Assembly: GCA_017848755.1 (NCBI GenBank)
Contig: JAFIHI010000148.1
Span: 1-38,032 of the forward strand
Source: Nakamurella sp.
GTDB lineage: Bacteria > Actinomycetota > Actinomycetes > Mycobacteriales > Nakamurellaceae
DNA: 38,032 bases
Direction of reading: 5' to 3'
Shown: positions 3,778 through 17,699 of the stretch, in pieces
Layout of the letters: each line of letters begins with the position of its first letter
How positions within the stretch are numbered: the stretch's first letter is position 1
Translations under genes and position numbers: made by a program
The notes under the pieces: model-generated
What the model was told of the DNA's origin: nothing
What the model saw: only the letters and a program-made list of their open reading frames with translations
Databases searched by the model: none

Positions 3778-4893
3778 ATGCGTATCGGAGTGCCGACCGA
3801 GATCAAGAACCGCGAGGGCCGGGTGGCGATGACCCCGGCCGGGGTCCATCACCTTACGCAGGCCGGGCATCGGGTGATGGTGCAGGCGGGCGCGGGAGCC
3901 GGATCGCACATCTCCGACGCGGACTATTCGGAGGCGGGTGCGCTCGTCGTGGCCGAGGCCGAGAAGGTCTGGGGCGACGCGGAACTCGTCGTCAAGGTCA
4001 AGGAGCCGATCGCGGCGGAGTACCGCTACCTGCGGAACGATCTGGTGCTGTTCACCTACCTGCACCTGGCCGCGGATCGCCGGCTCACGGAGGTGTTGCT
4101 GGAGTCCTCGGGCACCGCGATCGCGTACGAGACGGTCCAACTCCCGGACCGATCGTTGCCGCTGTTGGCGCCCATGAGCGAGATCGCCGGGCGGCTCGCG
4201 CCGCAGGTCGGTGCCTACCACCTGATGGCGAGGTCCGGCGGGCGCGGCGTGCTGCTGGGCGGGGTGCCCGGGGTGGCCGGGGCGCAGGTGGTGGTGCTCG
4301 GCGGCGGGGTCTCCGGACGGCATGCTGCGGAGATCGCGCTCGGAATGCGTGCGCACGTCACGGTTCTCGACATTTCTCCCACCGCGCTGCGGCATCTCGA
4401 CGAGCAGTTCGACGGCGCGGTCACGACGGTGGCATCCACCGCGCACGCGGTGGCGGAGCAGGTGACGCAGGCGGACCTGGTGATCGGAGCGGTGCTGATT
4501 CCCGGCGGGCGGGCCCCGCATCTGGTCGGCAACGATCTCGTGTCGCGGATGCGTCCCGGTGCCGTGCTGGTGGACATCGCCGTCGATCAGGGCGGCTGCT
4601 TCGAGGACACGCATCCGACCACGCACGACGACCCGACCTTCCGGGTGCACGACACGGTCTTCTACTGCGTGGCCAACATGCCCGGCGCGGTGCCGCGCAC
4701 CTCCACCTTCGCGTTGACGAACGCGACGCTCCCCTATGTGGCGGCCGTGGCGGACGCCGGGTGGCGGCGGGCCCTGACAGCCGATCCGGCGCTGGCAGCG
4801 GGCCTCCAGTGCCACGCGGGAACCCTGACCAACCCCGCTGTCGGCGCGGCCCACTCCATCACCGCGGTCCCGGTGGCCAGCGTCCTCGGCTGA
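3778..4893 (+). CDS. ald: Alanine dehydrogenase
   Basis: This 371-aa NAD-dependent enzyme interconverts L-alanine with pyruvate and ammonia, in the cytoplasm. The length and the [17 protein letters not shown] start are those of the family. Substrate residues are in the expected places: Arg15, Lys75 (VKVKEP), His96 (TYLHLA) and Asp270 (VDQGG). The Rossmann motif is [10 protein letters not shown] (171-180), with Asp198 at the end of the second strand marking NAD over NADP. A strong AGGAGG lies 7 nt before the ATG. It stands alone and converges on the TauE gene with a 2 bp gap and no terminator hairpin. An Lrp-type AldR commonly controls ald in mycobacteria, but no such gene is adjacent here. 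Confidence 0.97.
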
Positions 4894-14366: not shown

Positions 14367-14419
14367 TCCCGTCGGCGTGATACCGCCGGCCTGCTTGCGT
14401 CCGCGTGATCGGATCCGGG

Positions 14420-14432
14420 TATGACGCTGTTC
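14420..14432 (+). repeat. Copy of dispersed TATGACGNNGTTC motif
   Basis: Exact core within CCGGG...GCCGCG, in the gap between the convergent EthD-like and Lrp genes. Confidence 0.7.
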
Positions 14433-14485
14433 GCCGCGACCAGGGTCGCGGATGGGCGGGTTCGCGCCGGCCGCGCGGCCGGACC

Positions 14486-14977
14486 CTACACCACCCCCGG
14501 CCCGGCGATAACCTCGAACAGCAACTGGGTTTCGGTGTGCGAGACGCCCGGCTGCACGGTCACGTGTTCCAGGATCAACGCGCGCAGCGCGGCCGGGCTC
14601 GTCACCGCGACGTGCAGCAGGTAGTCGTCTGCGCCAGCGGTATGGAAGGCCGTCAGCAGCCCGGGAATCGTGCGCAGCGCCGTGTGGAACCGCCGTACCT
14701 GGTCCGGGACGTGGCTGGACAGCCGCACCCGGATCATGGCCTGGATCGGCAGGCCGAGTGCCGCGGGATCCACCTGCGCGTGCACACCGAGGATCACGCC
14801 GGAATCGCGCAGCGCCCGCACGCGCGCCAGGCACGTCGACTCCGCAACGCCCACCTTCGCTGCAAGCGCCGCGTTCGTGATGCGCCCGTCAGCGACCAGT
14901 TCGCGCACGAGCGCCCGATCGACAGCATCGAGTCCACCCGGCCCGTCAGTGACATGCGGAATCTTCGGTTCGGCCAT
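14486..14977 (-). CDS. Lrp/AsnC-family regulator, divergent from a Cys/Met PLP enzyme
   Basis: This 163-aa protein has the N-terminal helix-turn-helix LDAVDRALVRELVADGRITNAALAAKVGVAESTCLARVRALRDSGVILG and a C-terminal RAM (alpha-beta sandwich) domain with the effector loop HTAGADDYLLHVAV. Both length and layout are standard. The ATG at 14977 is chosen because family members begin about there; a GTG about 18 bp upstream is possible. It is divergent from the PLP gene, with a long palindrome between them. By analogy with regulators such as MdeR it probably senses an amino acid and controls that neighbour. Confidence 0.9.
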   Translation of the reverse strand: MAEPKIPHVTDGPGGLDAVDRALVRELVADGRITNAALAAKVGVAESTCLARVRALRDSGVILGVHAQVDPAALGLPIQAMIRVRLSSHVPDQVRRFHTALRTIPGLLTAFHTAGADDYLLHVAVTSPAALRALILEHVTVQPGVSHTETQLLFEVIAGPGVV

Positions 14978-15015
14978 GGCTGCGGCCCCCACTCCTGCAG
15001 AATCAACGTCAATAG

Positions 15016-15050
15016 ATCGAGTATGACGAAGAATCTTCGTCATACTCGAT
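15016..15050. promoter_or_regulatory. 17 bp perfect palindrome between divergent genes
   Basis: Perfect inverted repeat ATCGAGTATGACGAAGA / TCTTCGTCATACTCGAT with a 1 nt centre. It lies 39 bp from the Lrp start and 32 bp from the PLP gene start, so it is a likely Lrp-type operator. Its arms contain TATGACG, the 5' half of the dispersed repeat, placed head-to-head. Confidence 0.6.
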
Positions 15051-15081
15051 TCTTGACGCAGGATACTGCCATCATGGTGGC

Positions 15082-16284
15082 ATGAGCAGCGGCGACGTGA
15101 CCAGCAGTGACATGTATGGCAGTGAGCTTGGCATCGACTCGGTGGCGGTGCACGCGGGCCGCGAGGACCTGGCCGCGCTCGGCGTGCACGTTCCGCCGAT
15201 CGACCTGTCCACCACCAACCCGCTGCCGGATATCGAATCCGGCGGGCTCTCCTACGAGTCGATGGCGACCGGCGGACATCCGACCGATGGCGGGTTCGTG
15301 TACCAGCGGCTGTGGAACCCGACGGTGGCGCGCTTCGAGAAGGGCCTGGCCGCGCTGGAGGGTACCGCCGAGGCGGTGGCGTTCGCCTCCGGCATGGCCG
15401 CCGTGACCGCCACCATCCTGGCCGCAGCCCAGGCCGGACCGGGCCGGCACGTCGTCGCGGTGCGCCCGCTGTACGGCGGCACCGACCACATTCTCGACAC
15501 GGGACTGCTCGGCACGACGGTGACATACTGTGGGGCGCACGAGGTTTCGCAGTCGATCCGGCCGGATACCTGCCTGGTGATCTTGGAGACCCCGGCGAAC
15601 CCGACGCTGGAGCTCGTCGACCTCGGGGCCGTGCGAGTGGCCGCCGGCGATGTTCCGATCATGGTCGACAACACCTTCGCCACACCGGTTCTGCAGAACC
15701 CGGCGGCCTTCGGCGTCGACCTGGTGCTGCACTCCGCGACGAAATACCTTGGCGGGCATGGTGATGTGCTCGGCGGCGTCGTCGCGGCGCCCGCCGAGTG
15801 GGCGGGCCGGCTGCGCTCGATCCGCGCCATCACCGGTGCGATCCTGCACCCGTTGGGCGGCTACCTGCTGCACCGCGGACTGGCGACGCTGCCGGTCCGG
15901 GTGCGCACCCAGCAGGAGACCGCACGCCGGCTCGCCGAGTGGCTCACCTCGGTGCCGGCGGTGCGGAAGGTGTTCTATCCGGGCCTTGCCGAGTGCGATC
16001 CCGAGGGCCTCGTGGGCAGGCAGATGCGTGGCCCGGGCGCCATGATTTCCCTTGATCTGGCAGGCGGTTTCGCGGAGGCGACCATGCTCACGAAGAACGT
16101 GCGGCTGTTCACGCACGCGGTGTCGCTGGGCGGGGTGGACTCGCTCATCCAGCACCCGGCGGCGCTCACGCACCGGCCGGTCGCACCCGAGGCCCGCCCC
16201 GGTGCCGGCATCGTGCGGCTGTCGATCGGGCTGGAGAGCGCGGAGGACCTGAAGGCGGACCTGGCCCAGGCCCTCGGCATTTGA
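15082..16284 (+). CDS. Cys/Met-metabolism PLP-dependent enzyme (trans-sulfuration family)
   Basis: This 400-aa fold-type I PLP enzyme is of the cystathionine gamma-synthase/lyase family. Visible features are the N-terminal TTNPL opening, the PLP-phosphate loop FASGMAAVTATIL, VRPLYGGTDHIL, the strand IMVDNTFATPVLQNP with its PLP aspartate, the lysine in HSATKYLGGHGDVLGG, and the C-terminal arginine in GAGIVRLSIGLE. The Cys typical of methionine gamma-lyase (YGCT) is Gly here (YGGT), so a synthase or cystathionine lyase activity is likelier than methionine degradation. Regulation by the divergent Lrp protein suggests an amino-acid-responsive role. No strong ribosome-binding site is visible. Confidence 0.88.
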   Translation: MSSGDVTSSDMYGSELGIDSVAVHAGREDLAALGVHVPPIDLSTTNPLPDIESGGLSYESMATGGHPTDGGFVYQRLWNPTVARFEKGLAALEGTAEAVAFASGMAAVTATILAAAQAGPGRHVVAVRPLYGGTDHILDTGLLGTTVTYCGAHEVSQSIRPDTCLVILETPANPTLELVDLGAVRVAAGDVPIMVDNTFATPVLQNPAAFGVDLVLHSATKYLGGHGDVLGGVVAAPAEWAGRLRSIRAITGAILHPLGGYLLHRGLATLPVRVRTQQETARRLAEWLTSVPAVRKVFYPGLAECDPEGLVGRQMRGPGAMISLDLAGGFAEATMLTKNVRLFTHAVSLGGVDSLIQHPAALTHRPVAPEARPGAGIVRLSIGLESAEDLKADLAQALGI

Positions 16285-16313
16285 CCGCCCGGTCAGCCCT
16301 AGCCCCGGGCTCC

Positions 16314-16436
16314 CTCGGGGTGTGAATGTAACCGGGATATTCCGGACAGAATGCTGCTAGACGCACACCCTCTGGCCTGAGAGTGTGAGTGCTGCAGCAA
16401 AGTGTCGCATTTGTCCCGGTTACATACACACTCGAG
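16314..16436. mobile_element. 123 bp TIR-flanked element (MITE or IS remnant) or bidirectional terminator
   Basis: The ends are imperfect inverted repeats: the core GTGTGAATGTAACCGGGA (16320-16337) against TCCCGGTTACATACACAC (16414-16431) has one mismatch, extended outward by CTCG/CGAG. The interior holds a second hairpin, CACACCCTC / GAGAGTGTG, and no open frame. It lies exactly between the convergent PLP-enzyme and rnhA genes. The TIRs read like IS ends, but no transposase or clear target duplication is seen. The alternative is a large terminator. Confidence 0.5.
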
Positions 16437-16449
16437 TTCGATGGTGTGG

Positions 16450-17097
16450 TCAATCGAAAAGCGTGGGCGCCTCTGGGGTTTCGCGATCCGGGTATGACGC
16501 AGTTCGGCGGCGGGCGGGTTCGTTGATCTCTGGGCCGGGGGGCTGCGTGCCCACCGATCGTCCCGTCGCTTGCTCCGCCGGTCGCCCCGCTGTGAGCACG
16601 TCGCGCCCGGTCCGCCCGGCGCCCGCGATGCCAGGGCCCGGGTCAGGGGCACGGCCTGCTTGATACGCGCACGCCGCGCCGTTGGCCAGCCGGTCGGCCT
16701 GCTCGTTCAGCCCGTGCCCCGCGTGCCCCCGCACCCAACGGAAGTCGATCCGCCGCCCCGCGGCGCGAGCCTTCGTCATCTCAGCATCCAAGGCCTGCAG
16801 CAGTTCGAGGTTCGCGATCGGCTTCCCGTCGGCCTTCCGCCAGCCGCGCCTCTTCCACCCGGGCATCCATTCCGTGATGGACTTGATGGCGTACTGACTG
16901 TCGCAGCAGATGACGAGATCCTCTGCCAGGTGCGATGTTTGGCGCAGGAGGTCGAGCACGGCCGTGAGCTCGCCCTGGTTGTTGGTGCCGTGCGGCCACC
17001 CGCCGGCAGCCCATCGGTCGGCATCGATGTACCAGCCCCACCCGGCTGGCCCGGGGTTGCCGAGCGCGGAGCCGTCGGCGCCGGCGGTGATCGTCAC
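16450..17097 (-). CDS. rnhA: Ribonuclease HI with C-terminal extension
   Basis: RNase HI cleaves the RNA strand of RNA-DNA hybrids. All catalytic residues are present when counted from the GTG at 17097: Asp8 (ADGS), Glu43 (NNQGELTAV), Asp66 (CDSQYAI), His125 (RGHAGHG) and Asp135 (EQADRLA). The catalytic domain ends near residue 140. The remaining 75 aa are a Pro/Gly/Ala-rich tail ending TLFD, without the acid-phosphatase domain of mycobacterial RNase H fusions. GTG at 17103 is an alternative start; AGGA upstream favours 17097. The last part of the gene contains a copy of the dispersed repeat. The CRISPR-like repeats lie just upstream. Confidence 0.92.
   Translation of the reverse strand: MTITAGADGSALGNPGPAGWGWYIDADRWAAGGWPHGTNNQGELTAVLDLLRQTSHLAEDLVICCDSQYAIKSITEWMPGWKRRGWRKADGKPIANLELLQALDAEMTKARAAGRRIDFRWVRGHAGHGLNEQADRLANGAACAYQAGRAPDPGPGIAGAGRTGRDVLTAGRPAEQATGRSVGTQPPGPEINEPARRRTASYPDRETPEAPTLFD
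16493..16505 (+). repeat. Copy of dispersed TATGACGNNGTTC motif
   Basis: Exact core (TATGACGCAGTTC) with CCGGG before it and a GC-rich tail after it, overlapping the non-catalytic C-terminal tail of rnhA. Confidence 0.65.
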
Positions 17098-17148
17098 GCG
17101 CACGATCCTGCCACGTGCTCGCCCGCGAGCGGTGAACGGCGTCATCTC

Positions 17149-17299
17149 CGCGCGCCCCGCCCCCGCGCGAGAGTTGGTGAATACGCGGACTCGGCCGACG
17201 GCGTGACCTCGCGCGCCCCGCCCCCGCGCGGGAGTGAGCTGGCCCACGCCGCCAGATCACCGGCACCGGCCGCGCGCCCCGCCCCCGCGCGGGAGTGAG
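17149..17299. CRISPR. CRISPR-like micro-array: three 29 nt repeats, two 32 nt spacers
   Basis: Repeats lie at 17149-17177, 17210-17238 and 17271-17299, an exact 61 bp period. The last two are identical over 29 nt (CGCGCGCCCC... ending GGGAGTGAG). The first shares the first 21 nt and differs at three of the last eight. The spacers (17178-17209 and 17239-17270) are both 32 nt and unrelated to each other, so this is not an ordinary minisatellite. Period, lengths and the GC-rich partly palindromic repeat fit type I-E arrays, probably read on the minus strand. No cas gene lies in the window. Confidence 0.45.
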
Positions 17300-17459
17300 A
17301 CGTTCGGAGGTGGTGGCTGTGGCCCCTAGCGCGGGGCGGGCGGCGGGGTCATCATGGCGGAAGACACCGCTGGAGAACCAGGCAGTCTCGCCAGGCCGGT
17401 GTGTCGGCCCGATCCGGCGGTGTCCGCCGAAAGGGACGCCAACCGAAGGGAGCCGCGCG

Positions 17460-17699
17460 ATGACCAGGATTCCGCCGACCGTCGATTGGTCGGCTGAGGT
17501 GCCGGATGCGGATGTGGCGCCGGAGTTCGCGCCGGACGAGCCCGCCGATCCGGAGGAGCCGGACACCTTGGCCCCGGATGCCGACGCGCAAGGGCCTACA
17601 GCCGAATCAGCCGAATCCGGTGAGGCAAACCCCGTCGATGTGGCAGAGCAGCAGGAAGTGGTCGGCGACGAGGACGACGACTACAACCGCGACGAGTGA
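17460..17699 (+). CDS. Small acidic protein, conserved actinobacterial type, function unknown
   Basis: This 79-aa protein is very rich in Asp, Glu, Pro and Ala (PEFAPDEPADPEEPDTLAPDADAQGP) and ends in an acidic DEDDDYNRDE tail. It has no membrane segment, signal peptide or fold-like hydrophobic pattern, so it is probably disordered. The ATG has GGGAG 8 nt upstream; an in-frame extension to about 17295 exists but lacks a ribosome-binding site and protein-like composition. Similar short acidic proteins recur in this bacterial group, but I know no function. It is followed by a hairpin 100 bp downstream. Confidence 0.7.
   Translation: MTRIPPTVDWSAEVPDADVAPEFAPDEPADPEEPDTLAPDADAQGPTAESAESGEANPVDVAEQQEVVGDEDDDYNRDE

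Follow-up and report, generated by a model that had tools for sequence, protein, structure and literature searches.

The window, meaning the whole stretch of 38,032 nucleotides analysed here, is contig C44 of a 3.85-Mb draft genome of Nakamurella sp. in 259 contigs. Table 1 presents an overview of a mini-array of three direct repeats and two spacers, together with its neighbour rnhA, whose likely start lies 54 bp away. The rnhA gene is outside the array proper and was used as the conserved neighbour for synteny. Within the array, repeat starts are separated by 61 and 61 nt, the exact identity between copies 2 and 3 spans precisely 29 nt, and the three mismatches of copy 1 all fall within the final 8 nt of the repeat. 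Since the two spacers agree at just 8 of 32 positions in an ungapped comparison, they are regarded as unrelated. The repeat cores are nearly pure G+C and imperfectly palindromic. An earlier note on this DNA had described two identical repeats and one diverged copy, two unrelated 32-nt spacers, a 29/32 nt geometry and a 61-nt period, and the re-measured values agree with it throughout.

Table 1. Features of the mini-array and its surroundings in the window.
Feature	Position	Strand	Remarks
rnhA (RNase HI)	16453..17094	-	PF00075, 2.3e-29; likely GTG start at 17094
Segment between conserved flanks	17134..17308	.	about 20 bp in G010; delimited by blastn flanks
Repeat copy 1, diverged	17149..17177	+	26/29 match to copies 2 and 3
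Spacer 1, 32 nt	17178..17209	+	TGAATACGCGGACTCGGCCGACGGCGTGACCT
Repeat copy 2, 29 nt	17210..17238	+	CGCGCGCCCCGCCCCCGCGCGGGAGTGAG
Spacer 2, 32 nt	17239..17270	+	CTGGCCCACGCCGCCAGATCACCGGCACCGGC
Repeat copy 3, 29 nt	17271..17299	+	CGCGCGCCCCGCCCCCGCGCGGGAGTGAG; identical to copy 2 (29/29)

Direct repeats of 28-29 nt, a constant period and unrelated spacers of 32-33 nt mark an array as type I-E, and the mini-array has all three. Its repeat is likewise of the I-E kind, for which a palindromic CCCCGC...GCGGGG core is the mark, when read on the + strand. The analysis supports the reading of the locus as CRISPR-like, with the geometry of a type I-E array. The earlier note had taken the reverse complement to be the I-E-like orientation, which proved wrong: compared jointly with seven I-E repeats, the + strand gives p 0.007 and the reverse complement p 0.10. 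Against the individual I-E repeats of its own genome and of genomes G002, G006 and G058, the + strand repeat scores p 0.002-0.008 in dinucleotide shuffles. Its fit to I-E repeats is about that seen within the I-E set itself, and the resident repeat resembles it no more than the I-E repeats of other genomes do. Its RNA hairpin is modest (z -0.8).

The mini-array has no cas remnants beside it, and the I-E cas locus of the same genome is not adjacent to it. The genome-wide search for cas3 and cse genes that the earlier note had proposed led to contig C119, which carries a complete type I-E locus of all eight genes: cas3, cas8e, cas11e, cas7e, cas5e, cas6e, cas1e and cas2e. Cas1e and Cas2e are matched at 5e-129 and 5e-44, so that Cas1-Cas2 is encoded in the cell. 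The cas genes are followed by an array with the repeat GTATTTCCCGCGCCCGCGGGAGTGACCCS, a 29/32 nt geometry and a period of 61, which reaches the end of C119 and apparently resumes at the start of contig C34, where its distal repeats are decaying. The gene adjoining cas3 has a 92% identical counterpart in the nearest relative, G010, which assigns C119 to this organism. In G010 itself no match to I-E Cas1 or Cas8e was found; the whole cas island is absent there, and the sequences bordering it on C119 and C34 lie right next to each other. Relative to G010, the resident island therefore looks like a gain or a clean loss.

The mini-array is like the resident array in its 29-nt repeat, 32-nt spacer and 61-nt period. 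Common to both repeats is CCCGC...GCGGGAGTGA, a 10-nt core plus palindrome, in which the first palindrome arm starts at about repeat position 7. The repeats otherwise differ, and the mini-array, unlike the resident array, lies without adjacent cas genes or a recognisable leader, has only two spacers and carries the second palindrome arm about 3 nt nearer to the spacer (6 nt against 9 nt). That the repeat is unlike the resident's makes it less likely that the resident system has a second array here, but leaves the case for a CRISPR array as it was. Of the options in the earlier note, a satellite array of a distant system is the best fit, given the complete I-E locus and 61-nt-period array in the genome, with the correction that the repeat is not the resident's.

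The search for the same 29-mer, also proposed earlier, was run and returned no copy outside the mini-array in its own genome, nor any in 17 genomes of the genus or in viral contigs. Allowing up to 3 mismatches, the repeat is also absent from 396 genomes of the phylum. The weak DNA matches that relatives gave are short and GC-rich, with no 61-nt arrays at those loci. I-E systems with diverse repeats are scattered across the genus and order. As separate observations, G002 has a long array with the repeat GTGCTCCCCGCGCCCGCGGGGATGAGCCG beside its own I-E locus (L150; L029/L035); its additional Cas1 matches near 1.36 Mb may be part of a different CRISPR type. At a contig end, locus L170 (contig C14 of G000, positions 15-110) contains GGCTCGCGGGGGTGTGAGCCC units in a short tandem, spaced 45-47 nt apart.

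To place the 61-nt spacing in context, exact direct repeats of at least 14 nt were counted at each spacing from 35 to 110 in 1,195,061 bases (~1.2 Mb, 31%) of the same genome. The mean over spacings was 0.76 per spacing. At spacing 61 there were 8, all within the resident I-E array or the mini-array; no other ectopic 61-spaced repeats, and no second ectopic array, were found in this 31% of the genome. The relative G010, which lacks cas genes, had 0 at spacing 61 in 427 kb. The restriction of this spacing, within the 1.2 Mb, to the mini-array and the resident array counts for a resident I-E origin. It also bears on an improbable alternative, namely a GC-rich element with a regulatory or structural role, lying upstream of rnhA, that happens to recur three times at 61-bp intervals. 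False positives in CRISPR calling are most often small arrays, and the composition and imperfect palindromes of the repeat cores would suit such an element, but coincidence would then have to yield the exact 29-nt duplication, 61-nt period and unrelated 32-nt spacers of the resident I-E array at a spacing that is otherwise empty in 1.2 Mb. Moreover, the rnhA upstream regions of other relatives hold no such repeats, which argues against a conserved regulatory role, and an Rfam scan gave no match for the mini-array, with just one sub-threshold snoRNA match nearby. No promoter- or terminator-like sites were found.

The spacers offer one further point to the regulatory-repeat alternative, since searches of phages, plasmids, viral contigs and 299 genomes of the order yielded no protospacer. 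The phage and plasmid BLAST of both spacers, as suggested in the earlier note, returned only matches at E 0.2-10, and a search of the 299 genomes, cas genes included, at up to 3 mismatches returned only self matches. With exact 20-mers and a gapped pattern, IMG/VR gave one half-spacer match to spacer 1 and five to spacer 2, with whole-spacer identity of just 23-25/32; these were judged to be chance matches. As evidence the missing protospacers are neutral, because the majority of known spacers are without an identified source (PMC8616872).

Comparison with the nearest relative presents an empty site. The window and G010 are collinear at 90-96% identity from 14.4 to 22.1 kb and are interrupted at the array, where 175 bp here stand against 20 bp in G010. 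The flanks aligned by blastn, 14398-17133 (90.5%) and 17309-17697 (92.8%), abut at positions 4803 and 4782 of G010 contig C9; the rnhA region of G010 is the same sequence as MKSW01000009.1, "Actinobacteria bacterium 69-20". The 20-bp segment keeps only about 12 similar bases, so that a 29-bp site as it would have stood before integration is not clearly recognisable in G010. The earlier note had set one pattern against a CRISPR interpretation, the same block conserved in distant strains with no cas locus in relatives. This was not seen; among the genomes compared the mini-array is strain-specific. The same alignment makes an assembly artefact very improbable. The genome is a fragmented draft, possibly derived from a metagenome, and the resident array itself splits the assembly into two contigs, but the mini-array lies at least 17 kb from each contig end and both its flanks are 90-96% identical to, and collinear with, G010. 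The mini-array is real, CRISPR-type and ectopic. It is an unusual find, though it adds no new kind of system, and very probably it is a genuine type I-E-type array made by Cas1-Cas2.

Type I-E Cas1-Cas2 inserts 32 bp and duplicates exactly 29 bp around the insert. The sequence of events that we infer at the mini-array follows from this property. An I-E-kind Cas1-Cas2 would have linked a 32-bp DNA fragment to either side of 29 bp of repeat-like sequence, gap filling would have duplicated the 29 bp to give a 61-bp unit, and a second round of integration would have produced two units. The integrase would most likely be Cas1-Cas2 of the C119 system, working off target on an imperfect palindrome, rich in GC, that resembles its own repeat. 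Spacers integrate outside arrays in E. coli with overexpressed Cas1-Cas2, according to the accounts of Nivala et al. 2018 in PMC11788318 and PMC9456107, and in vitro a type II-A system integrates off target at sites resembling the leader-repeat junction (PMC6895254). In view of this documented activity, off-target integration by the resident I-E integrase is preferred as the origin, with about an even chance of being correct.

Several of the observations above favour this origin, among them the 29/32 geometry with its exact 29-nt duplication, the complete I-E locus and 29/32 array in the same genome, the + strand likeness to I-E repeats, the core shared with the resident repeat and the lack of cas remnants. 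A repeat unique to the site, as judged from its own genome, 17 genomes of the genus and 396 of the phylum, fits a repeat born on site. The clean difference of 175 bp against 20 bp, in a relative that lacks Cas1, Cas8e and the island, counts for off-target integration as well. Other findings pull the opposite way. As the repeat is no closer to the resident's than to those of other genomes, another I-E system could be the maker. In local alignment the flanks of the mini-array match the resident leader no better than shuffles do (p 0.24 left, 0.89 right), although a leader-like flank would be a help to off-target integration rather than a strict requirement. In the + orientation, the diverged copy 1 would be leader-proximal, which is contrary to the usual pattern and counts against the preferred origin. 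The lack of protospacers, the scant trace of a pre-integration site in G010 and the absence of a second ectopic array from the 31% of the genome scanned weigh against it as well.

These same features place another explanation close behind: the repeat looks I-E in itself, no flank is leader-like, and the diverged copy sits at the expected leader end. Under this explanation, which is possible but has clearly less than an even chance, the genome would once have held a second I-E system with CGCGCGCCCCGCCCCCGCGCGGGAGTGAG as its repeat, or would have acquired an array of that kind through recombination; the cas genes would since have gone, leaving an orphan array shrunk to two spacers. The repeat is equally similar to the G002, G058 and resident repeats, genus and order contain scattered I-E systems with diverse repeats, the divergence of copy 1 points to decay, and orphan arrays are well known (PMC8616872). 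Set against a remnant are the lack of any cas remnant or other scar at the site, a gene order unbroken on both sides relative to G010 with just 175 bp in place of 20 bp, and the absence of the repeat from the 396 phylum genomes at up to 3 mismatches. Compared with orphan arrays such as the E. coli I-F CRISPR4 (PMC8616872), the mini-array is similarly small and without adjacent cas genes. It differs from them in showing no evidence of former cas genes, in a repeat that was not found elsewhere and in spacers for which the 299 genomes of the order, allowing up to 3 mismatches, hold no other match.

Returning to off-target integration by the resident integrase, the mini-array is like the neo-CRISPR loci of Nivala et al. 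2018, as relayed by PMC11788318 and PMC9456107, in having repeat-spacer units at a place in the chromosome that is not a CRISPR locus, with Cas1-Cas2 encoded by the same cell. Unlike the loci in those accounts, it is known from sequence alone, has two sequential spacers and has a pre-integration site that is only partly recognisable in the nearest relative. Tentatively, and at somewhat under an even chance, it may be a natural neo-CRISPR caught early, in which the resident I-E Cas1-Cas2 added two successive spacers at a chromosomal palindrome by rnhA and so founded a new array with a new repeat. Two-spacer arrays without cas genes are treated as noise by most genome surveys. Here, a period identical to that of the resident I-E array, a different repeat and an empty site in a relative provide a natural test of off-target array founding, and the mini-array deserves to be retained as a candidate neo-CRISPR of natural origin, for which the empty-site comparison is clear. 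Nivala and colleagues reportedly proposed natural neo-CRISPR cases in 2018 as well. If true, a neo-CRISPR would show repeat diversity and second arrays arising without gene transfer.

The mini-array is probably decaying or inactive at present, as the divergence of copy 1 indicates. An immune function appears doubtful, as does a usable crRNA, because the distance from hairpin to spacer is about 3 nt short (6 against 9 nt); the resident Cas6e, cutting at the hairpin base, would give a crRNA with a shifted and altered 5' handle. A CreTA-like antitoxin role was considered and set aside. Antitoxin mini-CRISPRs of that kind (PMC8501985, PMC9458426) resemble the locus in having few ectopic repeats around a spacer-like guide, whereas the mini-array has two identical repeats and two spacers and is not beside cas genes.

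Two other features of the window were observed. Between a gene for a PLP enzyme and rnhA, at 16320-16431, there is a 112-bp imperfect palindrome with 56-nt arms that are 71% complementary and ends of the form GTGTGAATGTAACCGGG...CCCGGTTACATACACAC. Its GTGTGT-AAAACCGGG and CACACCC motifs have similar counterparts on other contigs (L234, L228 and L255) and in G010 (L191), a recurrence that suggests a dispersed MITE-like element. At 17460-17699 (+) lies a short acidic protein of about 79 amino acids ending in VVGDEDDDYNRDE; it has no Pfam match, and its region is about 93% conserved in G010 next to rnhA.
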